Assembly: GCF_000739635.1 (NCBI RefSeq)
Contig: NZ_BATQ01000117.1
Span: 62,001 to 126,000, forward strand
Origin: Verrucomicrobium sp. BvORR034
GTDB lineage: Bacteria; Verrucomicrobiota; Verrucomicrobiia; Verrucomicrobiales; Verrucomicrobiaceae
DNA: 64,000 bases
Direction: 5' to 3'
Positions 9,401-57,183 of this stretch are shown here, piece by piece. The position numbers and the translations under genes were made by a program. The notes under the pieces were generated by a model. The model made no database searches. It was not told the DNA's origin and saw only the letters and a list, made by a program, of their open reading frames with translations. How positions within the stretch are numbered: the first letter of the stretch is position 1; the number at the start of each line of letters is the position of its first letter.

Positions 9401-12400
9401 AATCAACATAGATACCGCCATTGCGCAGAGTGAAGCGGCCTGCCGCGTCAACATTCACCGTTGAGGCCGTCCCACCAGCCACGAAACTTAAAGTGGATGC
9501 AGCCACTGACTGTGTGCCAATCACCCCCGAGAAAGCGCCCGTGTTGGAGACATTGTCAGTTGCCAGCCAGGTGGTCACGTCGTTTTTATTGACGCTCGTC
9601 ATCTGCACCACATTCCCAGTACCATCCGTTGCCGCCAGGCGGGTGGTGCCCCCAGTCGAAAGGGTGGCATACGGCAGGATCGCATTCAAATGTGCGGTGG
9701 CGACGCTCGCACTGCCATTGTTGTAAGCGAATGCAACAGCAGAACCTCCCACACTCCTGGTGATGGCCCCCAGATTCAACGTCGCAGTTTGGCCAGCGCC
9801 AGCATTGACATTGACATCCGTGGTTCCCAACAAAAGGGTGGTGCTGACCACAGCTTGGATGGTGGCGGCCGTGCCACTGCCATTGATGGTCAGCACCGGA
9901 TTCACCAAGGCTGGATTGGCTGCCCCAAGTGTCAAGACACCCCCAATTTTACTCGAGTTGTTAGTGGTATAATCCAGGATCAATGTGCCCTCCTGGATGT
10001 TGGTAGCTCCCGTGGTGGTTCGCGAGCCTGAAAAGACCACGATGCTGTTGCTCACCTTGGTGATCGCCCCTGTGCCTGCTAGGGTGATACCACTTTCGAC
10101 TGCCCCATTTCGCAGGGAGAATGCCCCAGCGGTGGTAATTGTGCCCGTGCCGGTGACGTTTCCGATATTGGTGCCATTGCCCAACTGAAGACCACTGGCC
10201 CCGATGGAGATATCTGCGGCCAGATCCAGCCGACCCGCAGCAGCGGCTGAGGCAGAGGAGGCATCCCCTACCAGGATCATGTCCGTGCCAGTGCTGATAC
10301 CGTTGGCGACCAACACGTTCACCCGTCCGCCGTTGCGGATGAAGAGATCATCCCCTTGGTGGACCCCGGAACCTCCTGCCGTGCCACCAATATTCACGAT
10401 CGCTGAATCCTGGGTGCCAGCACCATCAATGACGATGTCGTCCGTCGCGTTCAGGGCATTGCTCACATTGGCGTTCAGGGTGCCCGCATCAATCACCCAG
10501 TCATCAGTTGCAGAGGTGGCGGCGTTGATGTTCAGGACACCCGTGCTGTTCTTTTGCAGGTCGGAGCCTGAGCCAGTGACGGAGACGATGTTGTTGAGGG
10601 TGATGTCGCCCGTGCCCGAGAAGACCACGCGGTTGTCCGTGGTGAATCCAGTGCCCGTGATGGTTCCATTTAAAATCAGTTCGACAGTCGCTCCAGTGGA
10701 AGCGGCGGCCGTGATGGTCCGGCTGCCGGCGGGGGTGGCATAGAGCAATCCCGCATTCACAACCGAACCTTGAGGGTTGTTGGTCGCGCTATAAGTGAGC
10801 GTGCCACCGAGACTGATCACTCCACCACCAGCGGTGTCCAGAATGTTCGCCGCGGAAGACCCCGAAGCGCCCCCCAGGTTGATCGATGCCAGGGCGGGAC
10901 TTCCACCGTTCACATCAAACGCTGCCGTCGCTCCTGCTGCTGCAGTGATGGTGAGAGCACTCCCACCACTAAGATTACCCCCGGTCGCCAGTTGCAGAGT
11001 GCCTCCCGTGATCAGCGTCGCGCCGGTGTAGGTGTTGACTCCCCCCAAGATCAAAGTTCCGATCCCCACCTTGGTCAGCGCCATCGTGCCCGCTGCGCCA
11101 TTTCGCACCACTCCACTGAAGGTGGAGATCGTGTTCAGAGACCCCACCGTGAGAATAGAGGCAGCACTGATGTGGTTGTTTTCGACGAAACCACTACCAG
11201 TCAGCGAGCCTAGGTTGCCGTTGTTCCCATTGAGCCGCAGAATGGCAGTTCCATTGACCGTGTAGGCAGAGCTGGCGCTCAGTCCCGTATTCGAGCCGGC
11301 CTGCAACACACCTGTCGAGACGACTGTGGCCCCGGCATGACTGTTCACCCCAGAAATCGTCACGGTGCCCGCACCAGTTTTCGTCAGCATGCCATTCCCC
11401 GACAGGGCACCACTGATCGTCAGGGAGGCTCCAGTGGCGCTGATATTCCAAGTTTGATCCGTCCCCACCGCGACCGGCGCCGAGATGGTGATGGCACCAG
11501 CGTTGTCATCAATGATAAGACCATTCGCGGACACCGAAGGCGCGATGGTGAGCGTCCCGGATGATCCTTGGGCGACGGTGACGCTGGTGACACCAGCAGG
11601 AGCATTGGTGAAGCGAAGACTGGCAATGGCAAAATCACCATCCAACGTGGTTGAGATGGCCGCCCCAGTCGCAGCGCTCGAACTGAAGATCACCCCGTTG
11701 GCCACGCCAGGCAATGCTGCGGCATCCGTCGTGCCGACCGCATTGGAAGACCAGTTGGTGGAGCCTGGGGAATAGGAAGCCCAGCTGTTGCCCAAATCTC
11801 CGCGCCAGTAAACATCTCCCACCAGGGCCGAAAGGACATTCAATTGAACCACGGTCGGGGAACTGGTGAGACTGTAGGCATACCCTGTGAGATGTGCGGA
11901 GTAACTCGCGCCGCCAAGACCACTTCCCGCACTAAGCAGGTTGTAAATGCCCACTCCAAAGCCAGCCACTTTGGTGAGTTCAAATCGCACTGAGCTGGCA
12001 GTGACAGCGGCACCAGCAGTGGTGATCAGGTCAGAGGAGGTTCCCAGGTCCAGTCCCAGCCGGGCCATGCCGCCGCCCGCCCCCAAGTTCAAGGTGGCAA
12101 CATTGGCGAGCGGAACTCCCGCCCCGTTGGCTAGATTGAGATAGCCTCCGCCCGCCACGGTCACGGTCTGAATGGATCCGGGGGCCAGCATGGCGCCGCT
12201 GAGATTCAACGCAGACCCGGAGGAAACACTTAGCGCACTTGTGCTACTCAAGTCTCCTGAGATGGTAAGCACACCCGCGCTGGCCACAGTCGCCCCTGTG
12301 TGGGACGCCACACCAGTGATCACCAGAGTTCCCGTTCCGGTCTTGATCAGAGTGGCCCCGGCACCCGACACGTTGCCACCTAGGGTAAGCACGCCGGTAG

Positions 12401-15400
12401 CGGTGTTGACGTCCACCACTCCCCCACCCGTGCCCAAGTTGAGGCCCCGATTGACGCCAAGATCAAGCGCTGAGGCTCCGGTGTACCGAAGCACACTGCC
12501 ATTGCTGAGTCCCAGCGTATTGGTGGCAGAGGCATCACCCAGATTCTCACTTGCAGCGAACGCTAGCGTCCCACCTGAAACTCCGACAGCCCCGCTGAAG
12601 GTGTTGGCCCCGGAAAGCGTGAGCACGCCCACTCCCGTCTTGGTAAGTCCTCCGGATGTGTTAGCCGCCAACGTCACCGTCCCCAGGGTGGCAGCCGTCG
12701 CTGCGCCACCGCCTGAAAGTGTCACGCTGGGCGTGCCCGTGTAGTCCACCCCCGGATTGGTAATAGTGATGCTGGCCACCCTCAGCGTGCCATTCCCGGT
12801 GCCGTCATCCACCATGTTGGCGATCGCCGTCGCTCCGGCACCGAGGCCGGCAATGGTCACAGCCGGTGCTCCGATGTAGCCCGAACCACCATCCACCACC
12901 TGAACGGTGGCCACACCATTGCCGGTGGGCGCAAGCAAGTTGGCTCCAATGGTCAGATCAAAACTGTTGGTATCCACGACGGCACCTCCCGCGAAGGTAC
13001 CGAAGGCACCGTTCACCGTGACTCGGTTCACCGTCGTCGGAACAAACGTCGCGCCGGCCGCGCCGGCACGCAGCGTGCCGCCGTTAAAGTTGATGTAGCT
13101 GGTGCCTGAGGTGCGGGTGAAGGAGTTCGTCACCAGCGTGCCAGCATTCATATTTACGATGGCTGTACCCGTCCAGGTACCGCCACCGAACTGCACGCTG
13201 CGCCCGGTGTTGTCCAGCAACCCACCCGTAATGTTCAACTCCGCCCGCCCAGTCCCCTGCCAGCCAAGCGCAATGTTTTGTCCTGCTGCACTATGATTCA
13301 ACGTTCCACCTGCAACCGTGAGCACCCCGATGGATGCCCCGTGGCGGGCCAGCAGCAGGAATCCGGTGTTGTTGACCGTCCCTCCGGTGATCAAGCCGAC
13401 CCCGATACCGCCGGTCGTGTTCGCGCCTTGAACCCCTCCGAACTGGAACCTGGCCAAATTCAACGTGCCACCCGTCATGACAAGGCTGCCGTAGCCTCCG
13501 TTTGCCGCGCCGAATGCCGGGATGGTATCCTGGGTCTCACCCGTTGTCGCGGTATAGGTCCCTCCACTGATGTTCACCGCCCCTGAGGCTCCGTTGGCAT
13601 TGCCCACCACCAGCAAGGGGCTGGAAATGGATCCGCCCGCCACCAGGTTGAGGACGGCATTGCCGGCAGTGTTTCCCACAATGACGTTGGAAGTGGTGGT
13701 GATGCCACCGCTCGTTCCATTGCCCACAGTCACTGCACCGGCACTCACTGTCACCGTGCCTGTGAGAGTGTTTGCTCCCGTAAGCGTCAACGTGCCAGTG
13801 CCGGTCTTCACCAGGGCCAGTGTTCCCGTCCCGGCGCCGCTGTTGTTCCGCAGGGTCCCGCTGAAGACAGTGCTGAGATTGTTTCCTCCAACCGTGAGGG
13901 TGGCTGCCGTGCTGGCGTGATTGTTCTCCACGATCCCGGACCCGGCAAGGGAACCCATGGCGTTTGCGAAGCCATTCAGGCGCACCACCGCCGGACTGTT
14001 CACCGCATAGGCGGAGCTGGCACTGAATGCAGACGCGCCCCCTGCCACCACGGTGCCGCCACTGACCGTCGTTGCCCCTGTATGGCTGGATACCCCGCCA
14101 AATGTCAGCGTGCCATCTCCCGATTTCGTCAGGCTTCCCGCACCCGACACTCCACCGGACACTGTGAGGGAAGACCCATTTGCGCCTGTACCCACCACAT
14201 TCCAGGTCTGATTTCCCCCCAACACCACAGGCGCTGAGATGGTGACATTGCCTGCGTTGTCCTGAACCTGGATGCCTGTTGCGTCTGTTGTAGGGGTCAG
14301 GGTCAGCGCATTGGTCGTGTTCGCTCCCGGAGCGATGGTGACCGAGGTGACGCCTGTGGGTGCCGCCGTGAACGTCAAATCACGGATGAAGTAGTTCCCA
14401 TCCAGCGTGGTGGCGATCGAGGGTCCCGTGGCAGCACTTGAGCTGAAGATCACCGAATGATTTGTGCCCGGATTGCCTCCAGCATTGATCGCTCCCGCGG
14501 CGTCGGTCGTCCAGTTGGTAATCCCGGCGTTGTAGCCGGACCAGCTGTTGTTTACCCCGCCCCGCCAGTAGAGACTGCCTGCTGCCATGGCCGTCAGTTG
14601 CAGTGACACCTTCGTGTCCGAGACAACCAGATTGTACAGATAGCCGCCAGCCACGGAGCCCAGTGAATAGGTCGCCCCGCTCAGACCACCGCCCGCCGAA
14701 AGCAGGTCATAACTCGATGCCTGGCCAAATCCTGAGAGCGCGAAGATGTTGAAGGCAATGTTGTTGGCCGTAATGATGGAGCCGGTGCTCTCAAACCGGT
14801 CTGATCCAGCTGTGCTGGCCCCAAGTTCCAAACCAAGGCCGGCTGTGCCGGACCCAGTGCCGAAGCTCAATGTGCCAGACGAGTAGCTGTGCAACTGCCC
14901 GGTCTGGTTGTTTAGATTAAGTGTGCCCCCTCCTGCGACAGTGATACTGCTCGTCGTCACCACCGAACCTTGCGGCCCGGCCAGGTTCAACGTTCCCCCC
15001 ACTACAGTCGTACTGCCAGAATAGGAGGTGTCGGCTCCCGTCAGCGTCTGAATGCCAGCGCCTACCTTCACCAGCGAGAGCACGCCCCCGCCCGATCCGT
15101 CACGCAAAGTTCCATTGAAAACTGTCGAACTTCCATCTGTTCCTAGCGTGAGAGTCGATGCAACGACGTTAGCATTCTCCACAATTCCTGTGCCTGCCAG
15201 CGAACCGAACGAATTACTGAACCCATCCAACCTCACCGTCCCCGCCGCACCGACGTTCATCGCTGAACCATTGCCAAAAGCGCTGGTGGATCCCGCCAGA
15301 AGGAGCCCTCCATTCACCGTCGTGGGACCAGAGTAAGTGTTGTTTCCTGCGAGAGTCCAGGTTCCGGTCCCAGCCTTGGTGACACCCACAGGATCAGTAC

Positions 15401-18400
15401 CGTTTGAGATCGAACCGCTGAAGCGCCCGTTACCAGCGGTGGAACCCTGCAATGTCAGCGACTTGATGCCTGCCGCGGCAGTGGTCGCGCTCGCAAACTC
15501 CAGCAATCCCGTCCCGGACTGGTCAATGATAGCGACACCAGTAGTTGCTGAGAGATTGATGGTTCTGTCCGTCGTCTCACCCGTGCCGGTGTAGATGATT
15601 CGCGAAGTGATGGTGGCACCACTCCCGAGATTGATCACCGAGTTGAACCCCAAATTTCCCGCCGTTCCGACGTTCCCGATCTTTGACACGGAAACCGCCT
15701 GCCCTTGAATACTGGCCGTTCCAGTGAAGATGTTGTCCGCCGTCAGGATCGTCACGCCCGAGCTGTTTGTGCCACCATGGAAATCAATCGTCGCGGCAAT
15801 GCCGTCAGCAATCACGGCATTGATGACGAGCGTTTTGCTGCTTGCCGCCCCGTAGTCCCCATTTCCCACCCCAAGCAGAATTCGGCCACCTCCGGTGGCA
15901 TTGATGGTGCCGCTGTTGGAAGTCGTAAGGGACGAACTCCCCGTAAGAATCACATCGTTGCTGGCAATGTCGATCGTTCCGCCGTCCACAGAGATGCGAA
16001 GACCGCCGGTATTGATCCCCGCAGCGGCCAGCGTCAGCACATTGGCCGATGCCTGGGTGATGACGGATCCACTCGTGCCGAAAATGGCATTGTTGACGGT
16101 GTAGTTGTCGCTGCGGTTAAAGATGAGCGTACCGGTCAAGTTGACTGCCCCTGAGCCCAGTGAACCGGTAGCTCCTCCGTTGCCCACTCGAAGCGTTCCG
16201 GCCGTGATGGTGGTCATTCCGCTGTAAGTATTGTCCCCAGTCAGGACCCAGAGACCGGCACCACTCTTGGTCAAGGTGGTCGCGCCACCGTTGTCCCCGA
16301 TGCCAGCAGCCAGAATGTTTGCTCCGGTATTGGTGCCAGTCAGCGTCAGATTTCTGGCACCGCTTTGCCCGTTGAACCCCATAGCCCCAGTACCAGCAAA
16401 TGTCATCACGGCCGCCGCTGTTGCACTGGAGGAGTCGAGCGAACCGCCCCCCAAGCCCAGACTAAAGAGACGGTCGGTGCTCGTAGCGGTGGCCCCCGTG
16501 TATTGAAGTGCCCCTCCGTTCAGCACAAGATCTGCGGCAGAGCCAGCCGCTGAGCCTTTGCCCAGGCTGCTGGCGGTGTTCACATTGGCAAGCACCGCGA
16601 CATTGGTCGTGCCGGCAGACAGAGTCGTTGAGCCCGTGTACGTGTTTGTCCCCGCCAGTGTCACGAGACCCGCTCCTGTTCCAGATCGGTTCACCGAAAC
16701 AACACCCGTCCCATTGTCTGCGATGACCGAGTTGACGGTGATAGCAGATCCTGAGAAGTTGGAAAGGATCAGTTCACCCGCGGTATTGTCAGCTCCGCCT
16801 GCGGTCACGATGCCGGAGTTGGCCGCCGTCCCGATCACCAGCGCCCCCGTGGTGGACGCAGTCGGCGTCATCAATACCCCGCCGGCAGCACCGAACCGGA
16901 GCGTCTTGCCCGCAGTATCCACTGTCACAGCGGTGGTGGTGTTCTGGGTCAGCGTGTTAATGCTGGTCGTACCGGTCGCTAGTGCCATGTTGGCCCCGGA
17001 ACCTGCTGAATTGATCCTGACATTGCTGTTGGCAGAGTTGGCAAGCGTCCCGCCAAGTGCAGCGATGTCTATGAAGCTGGTGAGCGCAACAACCTTGCCG
17101 GTGCCGTCATTCATCGCAAAGGAGGCTCCCCCATTGACCGTGGCCCACGCCCCGAGAATGCCGGAAGCGTCGTTGGACTGATTGGTCAAGATGATCGCAT
17201 TCGTGCCCAGAGTTCCGGTGGTTGCTTTGAAGTCAACCGTGCCTCCCCGTTGTGTGCGGGTGATTCCCAGCGTTGCACCCGTACCTCTTAAGTCAAGCGT
17301 CGTCGAGGTTCCCGCATTGTTCACGTCGATGATTACCGCACCGCCAGCCACCTCAAGGCCATTGAGCACCATGGTCACACTTGCGGCAGAACGTCCCAGA
17401 TACTGAAACGTTCCCGTGCCGCTGAGCACGAGACCAGAGGCGCTGTTGATCGGAGCCGCATTGGTGGCGGCACTGGCCACCAGGGTGCCTGCATTCACAA
17501 TCGTATTGCCCGTGTAGGTGTTCAGACCAGTCAGGATCAAGGATCCCGAACCTGCTCCCACCTTGGTCAGGTTCATGCCATTTCCAGAAATGACACCGGA
17601 GATCGTCAATGCGGCCGTGTTGGTGACGCCCATGCTGGTGTGTCCAGCCAGGGTGATGGCGGATGCACTGCTGCCCGCAGTAGTCGTGGAGTTGGTGAGA
17701 GCCCCGCTGTTGTTAACACCACTGCCTTGCACGGTGATCGGATTGGCGTTTAGCGCAGCCCGGATGTCGAGCGAGGCCCCATCAGCCACCGTAATGGCCT
17801 TGCCCGCTGCTACCGCTCCCACTGCTCCGGCATTTTGCACCCGCAGCGTGCCGGACTGCACATTCACGCTACCGGAAAAAGTGTGAGCCACGCCCGTGTT
17901 ACCTAGAATCACCATGCCCGTGCCCGAGCCAGTGATGGTCAAATTGCCCGAACCGCCAAACTGGCCTGCATCGTCAAGCGTCAACGTCACCCCGTTGACC
18001 ACATTGAAAACACCTCCCCCTGTCCCGATGACAAACGACTTGCCACTGGTGGAAGAAGGGTTCGTGGAATTCACCGGAGCAACGACCGCTCCATTGGTCA
18101 GAGTGACAGCCTTGGCCCCCGCCCCTAGCGAGAGAAGGTCAGTGGTGGTGGTGAGAAATTCCAGACGGGACGCATTCACCAAAACATCACCCGTGAACGT
18201 GCTTGTGGGTGCCATCAGCCTGACGGTGCCTCCGCCATTGATGGACAGGGCGTTGGATCCCGCTGTGACCGTACCCGCCAAGACGGAATTGAACGTCAGG
18301 CGTGACCCACCAGCCACCTGTACGGAAAGGGGCGAAGCACCAGAAGACAACGATGCGCCCGCCAGAGTCAAAGTCCCTTCCTCCAACACCACACCCACAG

Positions 18401-18686
18401 CTGACTGGCTTGAATTCAGTACGACTTGATAAACTCCAGTAGCATTGGTTCCCGCTGCAAAGGCCGCAATCTGGCTAGCTGTCCACGTGGATACTGTACC
18501 CGTCCCGTCAGCCTGAGGGTTCCAGTTAGCCGCACTTGAGTTCCACACACCTGAGGGGCTGCTCCCTCCACCCGACCCGGCCACGTTGCCGTTGAGATCC
18601 CAGTACAACACCGACTGCGAATGCACCGGCAGCACAAGTAATTGAGCAACAGCAAGAAACGAAGCGAAAACAATGAAGACCTTCAT
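3414..18686 (-). CDS. Giant autotransporter-repeat surface protein with PEP-CTERM tail (5,090 aa)
   Basis: This single open frame makes a huge Gly/Thr/Ser/Asn-rich protein. The N-terminus is a signal peptide (MKVFIVFASFLAVAQLLVLP, then VHSQS). The body holds about 20 copies of the autotransporter-associated beta-strand repeat, roughly K-x-G-x-G-x-L-x-L-x-G-x-N-T-Y-x-G-x-T-x-V-x-x-G-x-L, which folds as a right-handed beta-helix in relatives. Four tryptophan-rich modules (YW.G...W...NW) begin at residues 28, 1373, 2293 and 4200. A pair of GxGY...P.VT segments lies near 1934-1993. The C-terminus has no autotransporter barrel. It ends with P5066-E-P, a hydrophobic stretch and RRRR, the PEP-CTERM signal cut by exosortases. 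It is probably a surface or extracellular-matrix fibre or adhesin. No exosortase gene is in the window. The ATG has no clear Shine-Dalgarno. Confidence 0.93.
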   Translation of the reverse strand: MKVFIVFASFLAVAQLLVLPVHSQSVLYWDLNGNVAGSGGGSSPSGVWNSSAANWNPQADGTGTVSTWTASQIAAFAAGTNATGVYQVVLNSSQSAVGVVLEEGTLTLAGASLSSGASPLSVQVAGGSRLTFNSVLAGTVTAGSNALSINGGGTVRLMAPTSTFTGDVLVNASRLEFLTTTTDLLSLGAGAKAVTLTNGAVVAPVNSTNPSSTSGKSFVIGTGGGVFNVVNGVTLTLDDAGQFGGSGNLTITGSGTGMVILGNTGVAHTFSGSVNVQSGTLRVQNAGAVGAVAAGKAITVADGASLDIRAALNANPITVQGSGVNNSGALTNSTTTAGSSASAITLAGHTSMGVTNTAALTISGVISGNGMNLTKVGAGSGSLILTGLNTYTGNTIVNAGTLVASAATNAAPINSASGLVLSGTGTFQYLGRSAASVTMVLNGLEVAGGAVIIDVNNAGTSTTLDLRGTGATLGITRTQRGGTVDFKATTGTLGTNAIILTNQSNDASGILGAWATVNGGASFAMNDGTGKVVALTSFIDIAALGGTLANSANSNVRINSAGSGANMALATGTTSINTLTQNTTTAVTVDTAGKTLRFGAAGGVLMTPTASTTGALVIGTAANSGIVTAGGADNTAGELILSNFSGSAITVNSVIADNGTGVVSVNRSGTGAGLVTLAGTNTYTGSTTLSAGTTNVAVLANVNTASSLGKGSAAGSAADLVLNGGALQYTGATATSTDRLFSLGLGGGSLDSSSATAAAVMTFAGTGAMGFNGQSGARNLTLTGTNTGANILAAGIGDNGGATTLTKSGAGLWVLTGDNTYSGMTTITAGTLRVGNGGATGSLGSGAVNLTGTLIFNRSDNYTVNNAIFGTSGSVITQASANVLTLAAAGINTGGLRISVDGGTIDIASNDVILTGSSSLTTSNSGTINATGGGRILLGVGNGDYGAASSKTLVINAVIADGIAATIDFHGGTNSSGVTILTADNIFTGTASIQGQAVSVSKIGNVGTAGNLGFNSVINLGSGATITSRIIYTGTGETTDRTINLSATTGVAIIDQSGTGLLEFASATTAAAGIKSLTLQGSTAGNGRFSGSISNGTDPVGVTKAGTGTWTLAGNNTYSGPTTVNGGLLLAGSTSAFGNGSAMNVGAAGTVRLDGFSNSFGSLAGTGIVENANVVASTLTLGTDGSSTVFNGTLRDGSGGGVLSLVKVGAGIQTLTGADTSYSGSTTVVGGTLNLAGPQGSVVTTSSITVAGGGTLNLNNQTGQLHSYSSGTLSFGTGSGTAGLGLELGASTAGSDRFESTGSIITANNIAFNIFALSGFGQASSYDLLSAGGGLSGATYSLGSVAGGYLYNLVVSDTKVSLQLTAMAAGSLYWRGGVNNSWSGYNAGITNWTTDAAGAINAGGNPGTNHSVIFSSSAATGPSIATTLDGNYFIRDLTFTAAPTGVTSVTIAPGANTTNALTLTPTTDATGIQVQDNAGNVTISAPVVLGGNQTWNVVGTGANGSSLTVSGGVSGAGSLTKSGDGTLTFGGVSSHTGATTVSGGTVVAGGASAFSASSAYAVNSPAVVRLNGFANAMGSLAGSGIVENNHASTAATLTVGGNNLSTVFSGTLRNNSGAGTGTLALVKTGTGTLTLTGANTLTGTVTVSAGAVTVGNGTSGGITTTSNVIVGNTAGNAVLNLVAGGSISSPLLVVGNANGASGAVNISGGTYTATTGETQDTIPAFGAANGGYGSLVMTGGTLNLARFQFGGVQGANTTGGIGVGLITGGTVNNTGFLLLARHGASIGVLTVAGGTLNHSAAGQNIALGWQGTGRAELNITGGLLDNTGRSVQFGGGTWTGTAIVNMNAGTLVTNSFTRTSGTSYINFNGGTLRAGAAGATFVPTTVNRVTVNGAFGTFAGGAVVDTNSFDLTIGANLLAPTGNGVATVQVVDGGSGYIGAPAVTIAGLGAGATAIANMVDDGTGNGTLRVASITITNPGVDYTGTPSVTLSGGGAATAATLGTVTLAANTSGGLTKTGVGVLTLSGANTFSGAVGVSGGTLAFAASENLGDASATNTLGLSNGSVLRYTGASALDLGVNRGLNLGTGGGVVDVNTATGVLTLGGNVSGAGATLIKTGTGTLVITGVASHTGATVASAGVLTISGDLSSTSALSVSSGSALNLSGAMLAPGSIQTVTVAGGGYLNLANGAGVPLANVATLNLGAGGGMARLGLDLGTSSDLITTAGAAVTASSVRFELTKVAGFGVGIYNLLSAGSGLGGASYSAHLTGYAYSLTSSPTVVQLNVLSALVGDVYWRGDLGNSWASYSPGSTNWSSNAVGTTDAAALPGVANGVIFSSSAATGAAISTTLDGDFAIASLRFTNAPAGVTSVTVAQGSSGTLTIAPSVSANGLIIDDNAGAITISAPVAVGTDQTWNISATGASLTISGALSGNGMLTKTGAGTVTISGVNSHAGATVVSTGVLQAGSNTGLSASSAYTVNGTAILRLNGNNGNLGSLTGSGFVENNHISAASILTVGSLNTISTFSGVVRNGAAGTMALTKVGIGTLILGGVNTYTGATLITGGTLQLATGGNLSGGSALTITAAAGATAAFDVNGGSPALASINLGGASGSSAANILDTAGGGVISLGGTLTYSATNNPQGSVVNAGLLYATPAGSRTITAAASTGATVELILNGTITGTGFTTDNRVVFSGTGDITLNNIVSVTGSGSDLQKNSTGVLNINAATSATDDWVIDAGTLNANVSNALNATDDIVIDGAGTQDSAIVNIGGTAGGSGVHQGDDLFIRNGGRVNVLVANGISTGTDMILVGDASSASAAAAGRLDLAADISIGASGLQLGNGTNIGNVTGTGTITTAGAFSLRNGAVESGITLAGTGAITKVSNSIVVFSGSRTTTGATNIQEGTLILDYTTNNSSKIGGVLTLGAANPALVNPVLTINGSGTAATIQAVVSTTLLLGTTDVNVNAGAGQTATLNLGAITRSVGGSAVAFAYNNGSASVATAHLNAILPYATLSTGGTTRLAATDGTGNVVQMTSVNKNDVTTWLATDNVSNTGAFSGVIGTQSVAASTLSFVAGGTASTVNVDAAGRFTLRNGGIYVDSGVGANGTVISGGQLAGANSGVTGEIIVHQYNTLATLTIGSRLFGTTTLTKSGTGALVLAGNNYFATSLNNGAASFVALNEGTLILKGGNAIGDATSVHMKSGTILELEAGASETMGRLGIDTTNTSNGTISLGAGSSLTINQTGSATYSGVFTGGGTITKVGNGNLQLTGNTAAGFTGAVNVNAGMLYISGSAGRLNGSVEINLNAGSSFLIDNDDDSSNTTRISDSAVITLNSVNSPWAGETRARGLSIRTDNNSNLTETVGSLVFASGANYAGLEAAGGSSSVSGIIAANGISRSIGATFNIRGAALGATSGQRSLLKIADANDAAFMTSNLVGGGAATGGSNKNVSIVPWVIGETILDDLADNNMGNSFVTYVDNRGFVVLDLATEFRTFAAGGVAQDNIRESLSANLTGVSGQTINSLILHDATTAAGSLTVSGSGVLTNTSGAFLFTLNTGATASSAHGLLVSGFSSIQVGATNEYIMQVVNPISTATTPALTVEIASSLISTGASLSKSGRGTLILSGANSYGGGTFLNEGVLQVASLANLGSGGLTFNGGVLRFGGVFADDLSGRAINVSNAGGTLDTNGTSYVWLNGLDMTGPGNFIKSGSGLLTIQGASTYTGTFVVGHTSVITGGNAGVSQGVLLNGATNQTILGNLQIGSSGTPAGGTAGAALGADEQIADGSTITFNGVAASSRWAYFKLLGHTETVAGISDVTGAGVIENRETDTVSSSGALILNSDRDFSYNGYLRDNNVGGADANPLSLTKLGSGMQILSGSQIRYTGGTTVNGGTLYLLNTSSFASSIVNNALVVFDYTSGTALNLGKDLSGSGKFVKRGTGTVAFNGTNTFSGALVIEEGGISFSSSLGNNAVGNTIAILENSTLTSTGAASVLGNNQHLTLGGEIANIEVTGGSNTLTVAGSIFGGAQTRLDKEGTGTLVLAGASTYSGSTQVNAGRLEVRHASGLGSTASITVANGASLVLNTASTGGGASYGLTGSGSVVTLGTSGGTVSLGFGINGANNDRLVLGAGQSLNVAATTVNTDIYISGSPLLTSYTLVQSAVATSYSAFSLGAIFNPGSYVYTLDNTQANNLVLNVTALAGPATAYWKGDLTGSGTGVWNASQINGNTNWATAADGLVDTQVVPDAGTDVFFNATGAQNFTTSLGADIAVKSVTFLAGSGSGGNNTVVAGGNTLTLGLGGFSLLTGSGNISFSPNVTLAGTQTWTVTDSSTVFTVSGSVSGTGDIIKTGAGVVVLSGANTYTGKTVVNAGSIQVSAEVGLGGNPTGGFQADQLTLNGGTLIATANMLIDDANRGITLGALGGMFSVNSGVTLTVANAIAGGGTFTKGGAGTMLANGANNFNGAVVVNAGTLTFGNQLALTSGTVTAGTMNLGGAVNSFTGTVQVGTLATGALNYAVAGGSLSIGSGASSNLDIGVINDASTTARKGTVDLRGASNFTANVGMVRVGVYVSGGNVGLEGDLFLATNNTITAATSFVVASSSTPGVVGVNTVAFGSGTNTVNTPVMTIGGFKGSGEATLASGGTLTLQGLSGGSTTLNIGRNLGNTGTLTTSTFDMSAGTFIANLGAVVMGEKTGGGLGTATAVMTLGASSNNSVVASSLVVGSFASGTGSTTATFGAGTLNMGGGSFEVTGDVTLAAHNNGTGLSSGALNLTGGTFTIGGNMLKGMSASATATVTLNGGILDMTGGTIGSSAANGQVTFQAQQGRIRNLQELNGGGAFVKTTAGTLIASGVNGYTGATSVQAGVFQVGENQAGSISSAVTVQASATLAGTGTINNHVDIQNDAFLKPGDLAGAGKGRLSMGSLTVATGGQIQLQLTSATIPQDVALYGAITGGSWVDAQTYYTANNPAWNVTASPLSSHDAVAMTGTLTLGIRESGTYGNGTILLINEGYSASTGDVFNLLDWVGLLQGGFTVTSGQFAGLTSAGDLDLPELAVGYYWDTSAFMTQGILVVVPEPSRAVMLLLAAALVALRRRRHSV

Positions 18687-49165: not shown

Positions 49166-51283
49166 ATGAAGACACCTTGCCGTTTCACACGCCTGCTCAG
49201 AGCGCAAGCCATTCCCATGGCGGCAGCTTTGGCCTTCGCGCTCGCCTCCCCCACCCCGTCGCAAGCCGCCGGAGCGCTCACCCCAAAGGGCTCCCCGCAT
49301 GAGCCGCTCCGACTGGTGGACCACCACGTCCAAGTCACGCTCAACAACGGGTTCGCCCGTACAGAAGTCACCCAGTCGTTCTACAATCCCAACGCCCAGG
49401 ATCTGGAGGCCGTGTACCGGTTCCCTCTGCCAAAAAGCTCAAGCCTCTCTGAGGTCAGCCTGACCCTTGGCGAGCATGAGATTCACGGAGAGGTTGTGGA
49501 AAAGACCCGCGCCCGGACCATCTACGAAGACGAGAAGAAGAACGGCCAAGACGCCGGGATGGCGACGAAGGAGACCTTTCAGGCCTACGAGTTCCGGGTG
49601 ACCCCAGTTCGAGCCCAGCAGCAAACCCGCCTCAGACTCGTGTACTACCAACCACTGGAAGTCGACACAGGAGTCTGCCGGTATCTCTATCCCCTGGAGG
49701 AAGGGGGCACGGATGACGCCGCTGCTGCCAGTTTCTGGGGACCGGCCAACTCCACGCTGGATGGCACGTTCACCGCGGATGTAGAGGTCAAGTCGGCCTG
49801 GCCCGTGACCAACGTCCGGCTGCCGGGGTTCGAAGGCGACGCCCAGACCACCAAGATCGCTGAAGGGCACTACAAGGTGCACGTGGAACGCAAGAACCGA
49901 CCACTCACCAAAGACCTGGTGGTGTACTATCGCCTGGAAGACAACCTGCCCGGCCGGGTGGAAGTGATCCCCTTCCGCGCCTCTGAGACCGGACCTGGCA
50001 CCTTCATGATGGTGGTGACTCCCGGTCTCGATCTCCAACCCCTCAGCCACGGTGCAGACTATGTGTTTGTCCTCGACACCTCCGGCAGCATGAGCTCCAA
50101 ACTGCAAACCCTCGCCAAGGGAGTAAGTCAGGTGATCGGCAAGATGTCGCCTCAGGACCGGTTCCGCGTGATTTCCTTTGCCGACCGGGCCACAGATGTG
50201 ACCGGCTGGTTGGAGGCGACTCCGACCCATGTCGAGAGAGCCCTTCACCAGATCCAGACCCTGCGCTCCGCAGGCAGCACGAATCTCTACGATGGTCTCT
50301 CCATGGCCATGCAGAAGCTGGACGCCGACCGGGCCACCAGCGTGGTGCTGGTGACCGATGGCGTCACCAACACCGGCATCGTGGACTCGGCAGCGTTTCA
50401 CCAACTGGTGAAATCACACGACATCCGCATCTTCGGCTTCCTAATGGGCAACAGTGCCAACTGGCCTCTGATGCGGACCGTTTGCGAGGCCAGCGGCGGT
50501 TTTTACGCCGGGGTTTCCAACGATGACGACCTCCTCGGCCAGATCCTCCAGGCCAAAGGCAAAGTGTTGCACGAGTGCCTTCATGACGCGGAGTTCACCA
50601 TCCAGGGCGTAAAAACCCTCAACACAACGGGAAGCATTCCCGGCAAGATCTATCGTGGACAGCAGCTGGTGATGTTCGGCCAGTACGAAAAGGGCGGCGA
50701 CGCGGAGCTGGTCCTAAAAGCCCGTCTCACGGGAGAAGACAAGGTGTACCGCACCACCTTCAAGTTTCCCGAAACCGATATCGAGAATCCCGAGATCGAA
50801 CGCCTCTGGGCACTTGATCAGATCGAGCAATACGAACTTCGCGCCAACACCGGGGCCCTTCCCCAGCATGAAGCGAACAACGCCATCCTCGGTCTGGGAT
50901 TGCAATATCAACTGGTCACAGATCAGACCTCCATGCTGGTGCTCAATGACGACGCTTTTTCCCGTCACGGCATCGACCGTCAAAACCAGAGCCGCGCTGC
51001 GGCAGAACAAGCCGCCCACAATGTTCGCCAGGCTGCACCTGCGGCGACCAACTATCGTGTGGACGCCGCCCAGCCCATGACACCGCACGCTGCTCCGAGC
51101 GTGGCCCCGCCGCAGCGGTCATACAGCGAAAGCAGCAGCAGTTCGGGCGGCGGAAGCTGGTTCCCAAAAATCGGCGGTGGTGGTGGAGCGATCTCCCCGC
51201 CAGCGATGCTCGCGCTCGCTCTGTTCTCCGGACTGGCTCTCATGAGTCTGCGCCGGATTTCGGGTGACGCACGACAGGACTAG
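49166..51283 (+). CDS. VIT + vWA surface protein with GlyGly-CTERM-like tail
   Basis: This 705-residue protein starts with a signal peptide ending SPTPSQA. A VIT domain follows (~40-165; VQVTLNNGFARTEVTQSFYN, VEKTRARTIYEDEKK). The vWA domain has MIDAS D304-T-S-G-S308, then G-S-T-N and TDGVTNTG. The C-terminus is a Ser/Gly-rich linker, GGGGG (670-674), then PPAMLALALFSG and R696-R697: the order Gly-Gly, hydrophobic helix, basic end seen in GlyGly-CTERM proteins. VIT/vWA proteins with C-terminal sorting signals are known elsewhere next to a dedicated sortase (TIGR03788 type). Here a rhombosortase-like gene follows after 112 nt. The likely fate is cleavage near the glycines and surface attachment. 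Confidence 0.9.
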   Translation: MKTPCRFTRLLRAQAIPMAAALAFALASPTPSQAAGALTPKGSPHEPLRLVDHHVQVTLNNGFARTEVTQSFYNPNAQDLEAVYRFPLPKSSSLSEVSLTLGEHEIHGEVVEKTRARTIYEDEKKNGQDAGMATKETFQAYEFRVTPVRAQQQTRLRLVYYQPLEVDTGVCRYLYPLEEGGTDDAAAASFWGPANSTLDGTFTADVEVKSAWPVTNVRLPGFEGDAQTTKIAEGHYKVHVERKNRPLTKDLVVYYRLEDNLPGRVEVIPFRASETGPGTFMMVVTPGLDLQPLSHGADYVFVLDTSGSMSSKLQTLAKGVSQVIGKMSPQDRFRVISFADRATDVTGWLEATPTHVERALHQIQTLRSAGSTNLYDGLSMAMQKLDADRATSVVLVTDGVTNTGIVDSAAFHQLVKSHDIRIFGFLMGNSANWPLMRTVCEASGGFYAGVSNDDDLLGQILQAKGKVLHECLHDAEFTIQGVKTLNTTGSIPGKIYRGQQLVMFGQYEKGGDAELVLKARLTGEDKVYRTTFKFPETDIENPEIERLWALDQIEQYELRANTGALPQHEANNAILGLGLQYQLVTDQTSMLVLNDDAFSRHGIDRQNQSRAAAEQAAHNVRQAAPAATNYRVDAAQPMTPHAAPSVAPPQRSYSESSSSSGGGSWFPKIGGGGGAISPPAMLALALFSGLALMSLRRISGDARQD

Positions 51284-51298
51284 GCCATTGCGGGGACT

Positions 51299-51328
51299 CG
51301 TGGCTGCGCTTGCCTGCATGCGGCCACG
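51299..51328 (+). promoter_or_regulatory. Hairpin between the VIT/vWA gene and the rhombosortase-like gene
   Basis: CGTGGC and GCCACG form a 6-bp stem with inner TGC/GCA pairing. There is no T-run. It could reduce read-through so the protease is made in smaller amounts than its substrate, or protect the upstream 3' end. Confidence 0.35.
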
Positions 51329-51395
51329 ATAACCGCTTGGGGTGTGGGAGCTATTTCCCGCTCAACCTCTGCAACCATTTCCCACATCGTGACAT

Positions 51396-52091
51396 ATGCT
51401 CCACTCAACCTCTGAGCCATCGATCAGCATGCCCGCATCGCGTCTGCCCGTCATCATCGGGGCCTCTCTGGCCTTGGCGATTGCCGTGAGCACGGTCGCA
51501 TTGGGGTTTCAAGCCCTCCTGACTGAGACGTGGCAATGGCAACGGGGAGAGTGGGGCATTCGCCCCATGCCAGAACGTTGGCAGTGGCTGACAAGTCACC
51601 TCACGCACTGGTCGTGGGGGCATCTTCTCTGGGATCTGGGGGCGTTCATCGTACTTTCCATCGTCTGCCTTAGAGCTCTGCCAGCCCGCTATCCGCTGGC
51701 ACTGGCATTTGCAGCCGCCCTCATCCCCCTGGAGATCCGGCTTCTGGAACCGCAGTTTACCTCGTACCGCGGACTGTCTGGTCTGGACTCCGCGCTCTTC
51801 GGCCTCGTCGTGGCGGCGCTATGGAGGACCCAAACCTCCCTCCCTCGCCTGCTCGCCGTCCTGGGTGCCTGTGGGCTGGTGGGAAAAACAGGGTTCGAGC
51901 TGCTCACGGGCGCCACCCTGTTTGCCCCTGAGGAACCCGGACTCTATCTGCCTGTCCCCTCCGCTCATTTGACCGGATTTGTTGCCGGACTCCTTGCCGG
52001 GCTCCCCGTGCGTTCGCCACGATCTCCCCCGCCAGCACCGTGCGCCCCCGGTTCGCGAAACACATTTCCACTTCCGGCATGGCACAGGTGA
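51396..52091 (+). CDS. rrtA: Rhombosortase-like rhomboid-family intramembrane protease
   Basis: This 231-residue protein has about 5-6 membrane helices. It shows the rhombosortase pattern: H68-LTHWSWGHLLWDL, then Y124-RGLSG-L with the catalytic Ser128, and H191 in PSAHLTGFVAGL. Ser and His form the dyad of rhomboid proteases. Rhombosortases are a rhomboid branch paired with GlyGly-CTERM proteins; they cut the tail and release or attach the protein. The gene follows such a substrate on the same strand at 112 nt. The last ~25 residues are a Pro-rich cytoplasmic tail. Either ATG, 51396 or 51429, could be the start; neither has a Shine-Dalgarno. Confidence 0.82.
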   Translation: MLHSTSEPSISMPASRLPVIIGASLALAIAVSTVALGFQALLTETWQWQRGEWGIRPMPERWQWLTSHLTHWSWGHLLWDLGAFIVLSIVCLRALPARYPLALAFAAALIPLEIRLLEPQFTSYRGLSGLDSALFGLVVAALWRTQTSLPRLLAVLGACGLVGKTGFELLTGATLFAPEEPGLYLPVPSAHLTGFVAGLLAGLPVRSPRSPPPAPCAPGSRNTFPLPAWHR

Positions 52092-53880: not shown

Positions 53881-53941
53881 TGTCCTAATCCCTCTCTTCC
53901 CTTGACACCCCTGCCGTTCGTATGCCTTTGTGCCTGTTCCT

Positions 53942-56545
53942 ATGTCCAAATCCCTCATCATTGCCGAAAAGCCCAGCGTCGCTGCGGACCTTGCCCGCGC
54001 GCTTGCCAAGGCCCCCGGCATGACTCCTTTTAAGAAGGAGAGCGACTTTTTCGAAAACGAAACGCACGTCATCACCTCTGCCGTCGGTCACCTGCTGGAG
54101 CAGGAAATGCCTATGAAGGACGGCAAGAAAATCGGCTGGGGCTTCACGACTCTCCCGATTCTTCCCGAGAAGTTTGAGCTCAAGCCCATCGACAAGACGG
54201 CCGACCGCTACCGGGCCGTCACCCGCCTGATCAAGCGCAAGGATGTGGTCGATATCATCAATGCTTGCGATGCCGGGCGCGAAGGCGAGCTGATCTTCCG
54301 CAACATCATTGAGGCGACTGGGACGAAGAAACCGGTGAGCCGGATGTGGATGCAGTCCATGACCAACGGCGCCATCTTGGAGGCCTTTGACAAGCTGCGG
54401 ACGGATGAGGACATGCAGCCTCTGGCGAATGCCGCCAAGTGCCGCAGTGAGAGCGACTGGATCGTGGGCATCAACAGCACCCGGGCCCTGACCGCCCTGA
54501 ACTCCCGCCACGGCGGCTTCCGCCTGACGCCGGTCGGTCGCGTCCAGACCCCGACGCTCACCATTCTGGCCAAGCGCGAGCGCGAGATCACCACCTTTGA
54601 ACCTCGCACCTATTATGAAGTGCACGCGCTTTTCGGCGTCGCTGCCGGAGAGTATGCCGGGCGCTGGCTGGACGAGACGTTCAAGAAAGACGACACCGAC
54701 GAACACCTGAAGGCGGAGCGCCTCTGGGATCGCGAGGCTGCGGAAGCGATTGTCGCCCGCTGCTTTGGGAAAAAGGCCACGGTGGAGGAAACCACCAAGC
54801 CCACCCGCCAGGTGGCGCCGCTCCTGTACGACCTGACCAGCCTCCAGCGCGAGGCGAGCAACCGCTTTGGTTTCAGCGCCCGCCGCACCCTGCAGCTGGC
54901 CCAGGCCCTCTACGAAAAGCACAAGGCCCTCACCTACCCCCGAACTGACTCCCGCTACCTCCCCAATGACTACATTGCGACGGTGAAAGGGACCATCCGT
55001 GGGTTCTCAGATCTGACAGCCAGCAAGGCCGGTGCCTTCCCTGTGGAGCTGCGTCCCTTCTGCGACAAGATCCTGGACGAAGACTGGGTGCGCCCGAATC
55101 GTCGTGTGTTCGACACTAGCAAGGTGAGCGATCACTTTGCGATCATCCCGACGGGTCAACCCCCGCCGAAGAGCCTGGACGAGGCCGAGCAGAAACTTTA
55201 CGACATGGTGTTGCGTCGTTTCCTGGCCGTCTTCTTCCCGGCGGCCGAGTTCGATGTCACCACCCGGTTCTCCCGGATTGGCGAAGATGTCTTCAAGTCC
55301 GACGGCAAAGTTCTGCGCGAGGCGGGCTGGCTCGAAGTCTATGGCAAGAAAGCTGTCGACGAGCAGGAAGGCGAAGGCGGCGGCCGAGTCCTCGTGCCCG
55401 TGAAGCCGAAAGAGATAGCCGATGCCAAAACCGTGGAAATGCGAGAAGAATCCACGAAGCCCCCACCCCGCTACAACGAAGCCACCCTGCTCTCCAGCAT
55501 GGAAGGGGCAGGCAAACTGGTGGACGATGATGAGCTGCGTGAGGCCATGAGTGAACGAGGTCTGGGCACCCCGGCCACGCGAGCCGCGATCATCGAAGGC
55601 CTCATCATGGACAAGTACGTCGAGCGCCAGGGTCGCGAGTTGATTGTGACCACCAAGGGACTCGACCTCGTGGAACAGCTTTCCGACCTGGGAGCCGAAA
55701 CCCTCTGCTCCCCGGAACTCACCGGGCAATGGGAGTACAGGCTCAAGCTCATGGAGCACCGCCAGCTCGACCGCAACAGCTTCATGCGGGATATCCGCAC
55801 GCTGGCGGCTGACATCGTGGACAAGAGCAAAGCCTACGCCAAGGCCGCCAAAGAGCGAGTCCTGCCGGACTTTGTCGCCACCTGTCCTTTCTGCGGTGCC
55901 AAAACCTTCAAGAACACGGAGGAGTTTGTGGCCTGCCGGACAGAGGATTGCAAGCTGCGGGTCTTCAAGAACGTGGCGGGCCGAAATCTGAACGATGACG
56001 AGCTCCGGACGCTGATCGAAAAACGGTTGCTCCCCACTATGGACGGCTTCCGCAGCCGTGTCGGCAAGGAGTTCAGCGCCGGCCTGGAGATCAAGGACGA
56101 CCGGAAGGTCAACTTCCTCTTCGAGAAGGGACAGAGCGATGAAATTAACTGGGCGGAGGCCCCGGTCCTCTGCGAGTGCCCGGTATGTGCCAAACAAGGC
56201 AGGAAGGCAAACATCCACATCCTGCCGATCGGCTACGTGTGCCACACCGCCATCACAGAGCCCAAGAAATGCAACGCCAAGCTCCCCTTGGAACTCTGCA
56301 AAAAGAGGATTAGCGAGGATAATGCCCGGAAATTCTTCACCCAGGGCAAGACGGATGTCATCGAGGGCATGATCTCAAAGAAAAACCGTCCTTTCAGCGC
56401 CTTCCTGGTCTGCAAGGCTGGTGACAAGCGCATCCTCGGCTGGGAGTTCCCACCCCGGGAGCCCAAGCCCAAAACCGCCTCCGCCAAGTCCCCTGGGGCT
56501 AAATTCGGGCGGCAGAAACCCGCCCCGGCAGAGGAACAACCCTAG
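53942..56545 (+). CDS. topB: DNA topoisomerase III (type IA)
   Basis: The start at 53942 ([18 protein letters not shown]) gives an 867-residue protein. It begins with a Toprim domain (E9, then [12 protein letters not shown]). The active-site Tyr332 lies in [13 protein letters not shown], and helices [13 protein letters not shown] and [18 protein letters not shown] complete the type IA gate. Beyond the core, ~250 residues at the C-terminus include a zinc ribbon (CPFCGAKT...ACRTEDC) and a second four-Cys unit (CPVC...CHT...KKC), as in many TopB/TopA proteins. The enzyme cuts one strand and decatenates DNA. A terminator follows, then the histone-like gene. Confidence 0.95.
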
Positions 56546-56715: not shown

Positions 56716-57183
56716 ATGCCCTACGCCGATCCAGAAAAACAAAGACAGGCCCAGGCCGCGTGGTTCCGCAACGAATACCGCGCCAACGCCAAATTCCGCA
56801 AGAAGCACCTCGCGGAGAAAGCCGCCTGGTGGGCGGAGCGTGCCACTGAGGATGAAAAAGAGCGCCGTCGCGTTTACGCCCGCGACTACATGCGCAAAAA
56901 GCGTGCGAGCGCCAAGCGCCTTGCTGCCAAGGAAGCCAAAGCCAAAGGCAAAACGGTGGCCGCCCCTGTTAAGAAGGCCGCTGCCAAGCCCGTGGTGAAA
57001 AAAGCGGTGAAAGCCGTCAAAGTGGCTAAAAAGGCGGTCAAAGTGACGAAGGCCCCCGTCAAGAAGGCGCCTGTGAAGTCCGTGAAGAAAGCTGCTGTGA
57101 AAAAAGTCGCCGTCAAGGTGGCTAAGAAGGCAGTGAAAAAGGCGGTCAAGAAAGCACCTGCCAAAAAGGGCAAGCGCAAGTAA
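56716..57183 (+). CDS. Histone-H1-like basic DNA-binding protein
   Basis: This 155-residue protein has two parts. Residues 1-75 are a charged, aromatic helical domain (ADPEKQRQAQAAWFRNEYRA, EKAAWWAERATEDEKERRRV) that begins like the small YxDPEKQRxxQ proteins. Residues ~76-155 are repeats of Lys/Ala/Val/Pro (VKKAVKAVKVAKK) typical of the histone H1 C-tail and chlamydial Hc proteins. It probably binds and compacts DNA. It sits downstream of topB but behind its own terminator, so it is likely a separate transcript. No Shine-Dalgarno is seen before the ATG; a near-palindrome (56681-56700) precedes it. Confidence 0.82.
   Translation: MPYADPEKQRQAQAAWFRNEYRANAKFRKKHLAEKAAWWAERATEDEKERRRVYARDYMRKKRASAKRLAAKEAKAKGKTVAAPVKKAAAKPVVKKAVKAVKVAKKAVKVTKAPVKKAPVKSVKKAAVKKVAVKVAKKAVKKAVKKAPAKKGKRK

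Follow-up and report, generated by a model that had tools for sequence, protein, structure and literature searches.

A putative rhombosortase variant beside a VIT/vWA surface protein in Verrucomicrobium sp. BvORR034

In the genome of Verrucomicrobium sp. BvORR034 (8.58 Mb, 99.96% complete), a gene for a VIT/vWA protein that ends in a glycine run, a hydrophobic helix and basic residues is followed by a gene for a small rhomboid protease. Is the tail of the first protein cut by the second, and do the tail and the protease evolve together? The general principle of such a pairing is not new, and the locus is a fresh instance of an idea published in 2011, when Haft and Varghese defined the rhombosortase and GlyGly-CTERM system (PMC3237569). 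The same study reported VIT/vWA proteins with GlyGly-CTERM tails, PEP-CTERM tails (in V. spinosum) or LPXTG tails (Fig. 3C). It also found adjacent rhombosortase-target pairs in 16 of 21 genomes with a single target, including the verrucomicrobium Opitutus terrae and Rhodopirellula baltica. The initial annotation of this DNA had stated that a single rhombosortase usually handles many targets dispersed through a genome, which leaves out these adjacent pairs. In Vibrio cholerae, the rhombosortase RssP cuts VesB in its glycine motif (PMC6219818), and the new C-terminus of VesB carries glycerophosphoethanolamine, a modification linked to surface retention (PMC6219818, PMC11389362).

The two genes and their products

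The window, by which we mean the whole stretch of 64,000 nucleotides that was analysed, carries both open reading frames proposed in the initial annotation. The VIT/vWA region, the GGGGG motif, the hydrophobic helix and the R696-R697 pair that it had read are likewise present. The features are as follows.

49166..51283, + strand: VIT/vWA surface protein and predicted rhombosortase substrate, 705 aa (open reading frame and translation; VIT and vWA Pfam matches; fold match)
49166..49270, + strand: signal-peptide-like N-terminus, residues 1-35, ending SQAA (basic start, hydrophobic stretch and A-x-A-like end, judged by eye)
49316..49645, + strand: VIT domain, residues 51-160 (PF08487, E 1.9e-27)
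50063..50530, + strand: vWA domain, residues 300-455, with intact MIDAS (DTSGSM at 304-309, T372, D398; PF13519/PF00092)
51101..51172, + strand: disordered linker between body and tail, residues 646-669 (low pLDDT, weak conservation in the alignment)
51173..51187, + strand: GGGGG motif, residues 670-674, the predicted recognition site, followed by A675 and P678 (invariance in orthologues)
51197..51265, + strand: C-terminal transmembrane helix and basic end, residues 678-700, with R696-R697 (AlphaFold2 helix; reading of the DNA)
51396..52091, + strand: rhombosortase-family rhomboid protease, 231 aa (TIGR03902; predicted fold)
51606..51626, + strand: HWSWGHL motif, residues 71-77 (conserved in orthologues)
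51777..51779, + strand: predicted catalytic Ser128 in YRGLSG (aligns with GlpG Ser201)
51786..51791, + strand: Asp131-Ser132, a clade signature (alignment with GlpG and canonical rhombosortases)
51966..51968, + strand: predicted catalytic His191 in SAHLTG (aligns with GlpG His254)

The predicted fold of the 705-aa protein resembles structure 6fpy, inter-alpha-trypsin inhibitor heavy chain 1 (600 columns, E 4e-33), and the MIDAS residues D304, S306, S308, T372 and D398 are invariant across 26 relatives. Residues 1-35 have low confidence in the AlphaFold2 model, and the mature part begins with AG-LTP, which is conserved in the alignment. The tail reads GGGSWFPKI-GGGGG-AISPP, in which G670-672, G674, A675 and P678 are invariant in 12 orthologues, and G672, G674 and A675 across all 26 relatives. 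It follows a region of very low model confidence (pLDDT below 50 for residues 646-677).

The protein has the overall architecture expected for GlyGly-CTERM, including a signal peptide (judged by eye), a glycine motif lacking Cys, a single helix and a basic C-terminus. Sequence and model reveal no membrane segment besides the signal peptide and the C-terminal helix. The 22-residue GlyGly-CTERM model TIGR03501 nevertheless gives no match to the 705-aa protein at E values up to 10 and none to 25 of its relatives, and the same model run genome-wide finds nothing above its cut-off and has no match at this locus. A related model, TIGR03867, is weakly touched by six of the 26 tails (best E 0.016). 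The tail carries neither an LPXTG nor a PEP motif, and the protein scores 197 bits with TIGR03788, for which the cut-off is 552.

The initial annotation had proposed a search of the 231-aa protein against TIGR03902 and rhomboid profiles. Its TIGR03902 score of 85.4 bits passes the cut-off of 84 by a thin margin of 1.4 bits; relatives from its clade score higher, and the protein also matches Pfam Rhomboid. The predicted fold (pLDDT 88) matches E. coli GlpG structures with a probability of 1.00, and S128 and H191 align with the catalytic residues of GlpG, in keeping with a rhomboid fold that has its Ser in TM4 and its His in TM6 (AHxxG). All three motifs that had been read from the sequence are present, and S128 in YRGLSG, H191 in SAHLTG and H71, W72 and H76 of HWSWGHL are invariant in 13 orthologues. 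More widely, Ser occupies the Ser128 column in 150 of 150 aligned rows, and H71, H76 and His191 are invariant in 53 relatives.

One active-site residue sets the enzyme apart. Ser132 occupies the position of the His in canonical rhombosortases and of Tyr205 in GlpG, and this Ser+4 position holds Ser, Thr or Cys in 100 of 100 rows from the clade of the 231-aa protein. According to the 2011 study, nearly every rhombosortase has a His at this site, and this His was the best SIMBAL predictor of the family (PMC3237569). The 231-aa protein lacks this SGxxH signature. Because the His is a predictor and no formal requirement of the model, the protein is classified here, from its sequence, as a variant of the rhombosortase family and not as a typical member. 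The initial annotation had overlooked the absence of this nearly universal His.

Conservation and linkage of the pair

Searches of 240 Verrucomicrobiales genomes identified a rhombosortase (at least 72 bits, with the next rhomboids at 63 bits or less) in 13, and the VIT/vWA orthologue is present in exactly those 13 genomes. The two genes are adjacent in 12 of the 13 pairs, and those of the thirteenth are located at the ends of two contigs. Identical sets would arise by chance with a probability of about 1e-21 if genomes were independent, which they are not. The nearest named relative of the 231-aa rhombosortase is found in Verrucomicrobium sp. BvORR106 (76% identity). Among the other sampled genomes of the window's genus, G137 carries both genes, and G045 and the incomplete G180 carry neither. 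Presence that varies in this way within genera shows that the two genes have been gained or lost together.

A scan of named genomes yielded 80 loci, which are assigned to Verrucomicrobiota, Planctomycetota, Kiritimatiellota and a small number of other phyla; some may be misbinned. When upstream sequence is available, a VIT/vWA gene is located directly upstream on the same strand, often overlapping the protease gene (72 of 72 loci); at the remaining eight loci the contig ends within 417 bases. By the criterion of the initial annotation, the pairing would fail if homologous loci never kept the two genes together; both surveys find them together. The named-genome scan used patterns from the clade of the 231-aa protein (the D/C clade described below) and is biased to it. 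The profile searches in Verrucomicrobiota lack that pattern bias, and the unbiased counting covers this phylum.

Within the window, the two genes are separated by 112 bp and do not overlap, and overlaps of 1-4 bp are common between the paired genes of relatives. A promoter scan of the locus found no promoter-like sites, and a terminator scan found three terminator-like sites, a count not above that of shuffled sequence.

The idea that the pair is dedicated also came from the initial annotation, and a genome scan for similar tails lends it weight. When the window's genome was searched with a profile of the tail, only the 705-aa protein was significant (E 2e-11). The next match (E 0.019) proved to be a PEP-CTERM protein. 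The VIT/vWA protein is again the only one to stand out in four relatives searched with the same profile. The pair thus looks dedicated on sequence grounds, because the tail is the only significant match of its kind in the genome, and an arrangement with many dispersed substrates does not apply here. The glycine tail is absent from all eight VIT/vWA relatives that have no rhombosortase nearby. Plasmid records revealed no proteobacterial rhombosortase and no VIT/vWA relative.

Protease types and matching tails

Several types of protease can be told apart among the named loci and across 388 genomes of Verrucomicrobiota. Active sites of the D/C type read SG-x-D-(S/T/C) or SG-x-(N/G)-C, and those of the H type read SG-x-x-H. 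All D/C-type enzymes with a readable upstream gene (93 loci, about 90 of them distinct) have as their partner a VIT/vWA protein whose tail is GG(G)-A-(I/L)-x-P or a close variant. The H-type enzymes, which come from the same phylum, are paired in nine of nine cases with VIT/vWA proteins ending in G-(T/S/A)-GPVG. Two more protease types, both from one family that is probably Opitutaceae, adjoin other proteins. One is found beside proteins of about 300 aa that end in KPGYTGGGS and have no Pfam domain, and the other beside matrixin-like proteins that end in GGGGAPSxWF. A separate D/C clade that lacks the published His signature and has its own tail type is possibly new.

Two loci (L247 and L248) appeared to break the match between tail and protease, but their gene models are broken and the GPVG tail is encoded just upstream in another frame. 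Four proteins scoring 63-69 bits in the phylum search (L261, L263, L264 and L265) are GlpG-like on inspection and are not rhombosortases.

Trees of the proteases and of the VIT/vWA bodies disagree. With the active-site columns removed, the D/C and H proteases still form separate clades (support 98 and 100, from about 215 columns). The VIT/vWA bodies also form two clades (support 100), each of which includes both tail types. The trees come from quick searches, have long branches and include just 8-9 loci of the H type. AU tests on 51 matched loci reject, for the protease, a grouping by body clade (p-AU 1.6e-11) and, for the bodies, a grouping by tail (p-AU 2.6e-5); the groups tested had been named after the trees were seen.

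The simplest reading of these alignments is that the tail and the protease, whose coding sequences adjoin each other, have been exchanged against different bodies with a junction in the linker; residues 646-669 are the proposed region of this exchange. We give roughly even chances to the proposal that the tail and the rhomboid protease have passed as a portable module between VIT/vWA proteins on more than one occasion, and that the Ser+4 residue (His versus Ser/Thr/Cys) is part of a code matching enzyme to tail (GPVG versus GGG-A-x-P). If this is true, the rhombosortases comprise several orthogonal protease-tail pairs.

Possible processing of the tail and competing explanations

Taken together, we consider it likely that the locus is a two-gene cassette for cell-surface display, in which a rhombosortase of a distinct clade cuts the tail of the VIT/vWA protein, and tail and protease are exchanged as a unit. 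The protein would be exported and retained in the inner membrane through its C-terminal helix. By analogy with the Vibrio system, the neighbouring protease would then recognise the GGGGG-A-(I/L)-x-P tail and cut within or beside the glycine run, with GGGGG at residues 670-674 probably being the cleavage region. As with VesB, the new C-terminal glycine would probably be joined to a lipid-linked moiety and the product retained at the surface. The outcome would be a metal-binding vWA protein, presumably carried across the outer membrane and adhesin-like in its role, that is held at the cell surface, and its tail would evolve and be exchanged together with the protease as one unit. Of these steps, cutting of the tail of the 705-aa protein by the adjacent protease is, judging from the sequence comparisons, highly probable. 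A search of the genome for a type II secretin (TIGR02517) returned many paralogues but none above the curated cut-off, and the Vibrio export route is therefore not established here.

Other explanations differ in what they ask of the protease. The 231-aa protein could be an ordinary GlpG-like rhomboid that reaches TIGR03902 by chance, given its margin of just 1.4 bits and the missing canonical His at Ser+4. This is highly improbable, since all 53 relatives scanned match TIGR03902, GlpG-like rhomboids from this order reach 63 bits at most, and the protein does not have the Tyr or Phe of GlpG at Ser+4. In addition, the protein falls with the rhombosortases in a tree, as the initial annotation had anticipated, and the GlpG-like rhomboids tested are outside this group (support 99, in a tree built without proteobacterial rhombosortases). 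The whole loci might instead have descended together with no exchange, such that the conflict between the trees is a long-branch artefact. The short protease alignment, the quick searches and the post hoc groups fit this view, but the protease splits persist without the active-site columns, the body clades are fully supported, and both AU tests reject strongly. We therefore regard descent without exchange as unlikely.

Even with a genuine rhombosortase, its neighbour might be left alone or might meet another fate. The tail could be a plain anchor that stays uncut, with the rhomboid acting elsewhere and the genes being neighbours only for reasons of expression. The 112 bp gap and the lack of promoter or terminator evidence for one transcript are in keeping with this. 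However, the two genes are present or absent together throughout 240 genomes and are linked in several phyla, and tail type strictly follows protease type even though the trees conflict. Such patterns are difficult to account for unless the protease recognises the tail, and we judge an uncut anchor quite improbable. A less remote, though still doubtful, alternative is that the protease releases the VIT/vWA protein to the medium and no lipid is attached, so that the cassette works as a secretion or signalling switch and not as an anchor. Ectodomain release is common among rhomboids, VesB becomes soluble when cut by GlpG (PMC11389362), no lipid-transfer enzyme has been identified here, and the Ser+4 residue differs from that of the canonical enzyme. 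Against shedding, a glycine-rich site at a membrane segment with a dedicated enzyme resembles RssP and GlyGly-CTERM, where cleavage leads to surface retention, and the related VIT/vWA pairs with exosortase or sortase are considered to serve sorting to the surface (PMC3237569).

Relation to known sorting systems

Like RssP-VesB and other rhombosortase/GlyGly-CTERM systems, the window pair combines a rhomboid with a Ser/His dyad and a substrate with signal peptide, glycine motif, helix and basic end. It also shares gene adjacency when there is a single target, and VIT/vWA proteins are among the known targets. However, its clade has Ser, Thr or Cys in place of His at Ser+4, its GGG-A-(I/L)-x-P tail escapes TIGR03501, and its pairing with VIT/vWA is strict. 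Gram-negative VIT/vWA proteins with sortases (TIGR03788/TIGR03784) are homologous proteins beside a dedicated C-terminal processing enzyme, but the enzyme of the window is a rhomboid and not a sortase, and its target lacks LPXTG. Myxosortase and MYXO-CTERM (PMC11980579) similarly join an intramembrane protease to a tripartite C-terminal tag for surface localisation. That protease family is unrelated, and its tag has an invariant Cys that the window tail lacks.

Substrate choice by rhomboids is poorly understood, and about 100 loci of this kind encode an intramembrane protease beside its only known substrate. Two matched versions of protease and tail, possibly four or five, make reading of the tail by the active site directly testable. 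The pairing may also explain rhombosortases reported to have no recognisable target, as in Verrucomicrobiae bacterium DG1235 (PMC3237569), because present tail models miss such tails.

The initial annotation had further suggested that an intramembrane protease has taken over the sortase role for this type of surface protein. A rhomboid is indeed located beside the VIT/vWA gene, but takeover is too simple an account, because the genome keeps a PEP-CTERM VIT/vWA protein beside an exosortase. This paralogue (675 aa, locus L337 on contig C70) has the PEP-CTERM tail and exosortase partner that the 705-aa protein lacks, and its gene overlaps the exosortase gene by 4 bases (PF09721, E 1.3e-23). The arrangement is like that of the VIT/vWA PEP-CTERM proteins of V. 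spinosum (PMC3237569), which match the window pair in protein architecture and operon logic but rely on PEP and exosortase, not on a glycine motif and a rhomboid. The sequences thus indicate two sorting routes operating in parallel on VIT/vWA paralogues and not a simple replacement. The use of an exosortase for one paralogue and a rhomboid for another suggests fairly free reshuffling of surface proteins and sorting enzymes among these bacteria. G045, which lacks the rhombosortase pair, has the PEP-CTERM VIT/vWA paralogue, and the 705-aa protein and the L337 paralogue are distant from each other in the body tree.

A likely PEP-CTERM protein and a paralogous cassette

The genome of the window also encodes a likely PEP-CTERM protein and a VIT/vWA protein with a PEP-CTERM tail, at the following places.

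Window 3414-18686, minus strand: PATR-repeat protein of 5090 aa, with the C-terminal end VVPEPSRAVMLLLAAALVALRRRRHSV
L337:2435-5814, contig C70 of the same genome: paralogous VIT/vWA cassette, comprising a PEP-CTERM-tailed VIT/vWA gene and an exosortase gene

The 5090-aa protein is likely to be an exosortase substrate of the PEP-CTERM kind. The window carries both this predicted PEP-CTERM protein and the rhombosortase pair. In the paralogous cassette, the exosortase and VIT/vWA genes share a 4-base overlap, and the cassette is arranged in the same way in G137, another genome of the genus.

Further candidate pairs and disrupted VIT/vWA genes

Genes for A-type rhombosortases (L201, L202, L208, L209, L223, L224, L237 and similar loci), all in one family that is probably Opitutaceae, adjoin genes for proteins of about 300 aa. 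These neighbours carry no Pfam domain and end in EHKPGYTGGGS followed by a helix, which suggests a possible further dedicated pair. The L201 pair (G326:C1) may be the Opitutus terrae pair (strain PB90-1) included in the 2011 listing of adjacent rhombosortase/target pairs. If so, its target would be a 322-aa KPGYTGSGS protein rather than a VIT/vWA protein.

In L203, L219 and L226, a rhombosortase with the active site GLSA(V/L)(N/D)L is encoded beside a matrixin-like (Peptidase_M10) protein ending in GGGGAPSxWF, and the two might form another pair. Two rhombosortase genes lie in tandem in each of L203 and L212.

In three metagenome-derived loci (L247, L248 and L061), a VIT/vWA gene disrupted by a frameshift or stops lies directly upstream of an intact rhombosortase gene. 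These breaks could reflect either decay or assembly error.

A histone H1-like protein

Window 53930-56545: topoisomerase-like gene
Window 56716-57183, plus strand: putative histone H1-like protein of 155 aa, Lys/Ala-rich with KKAVKKAPAKK repeats

The two genes, whose putative functions are judged from the sequence, lie near each other.
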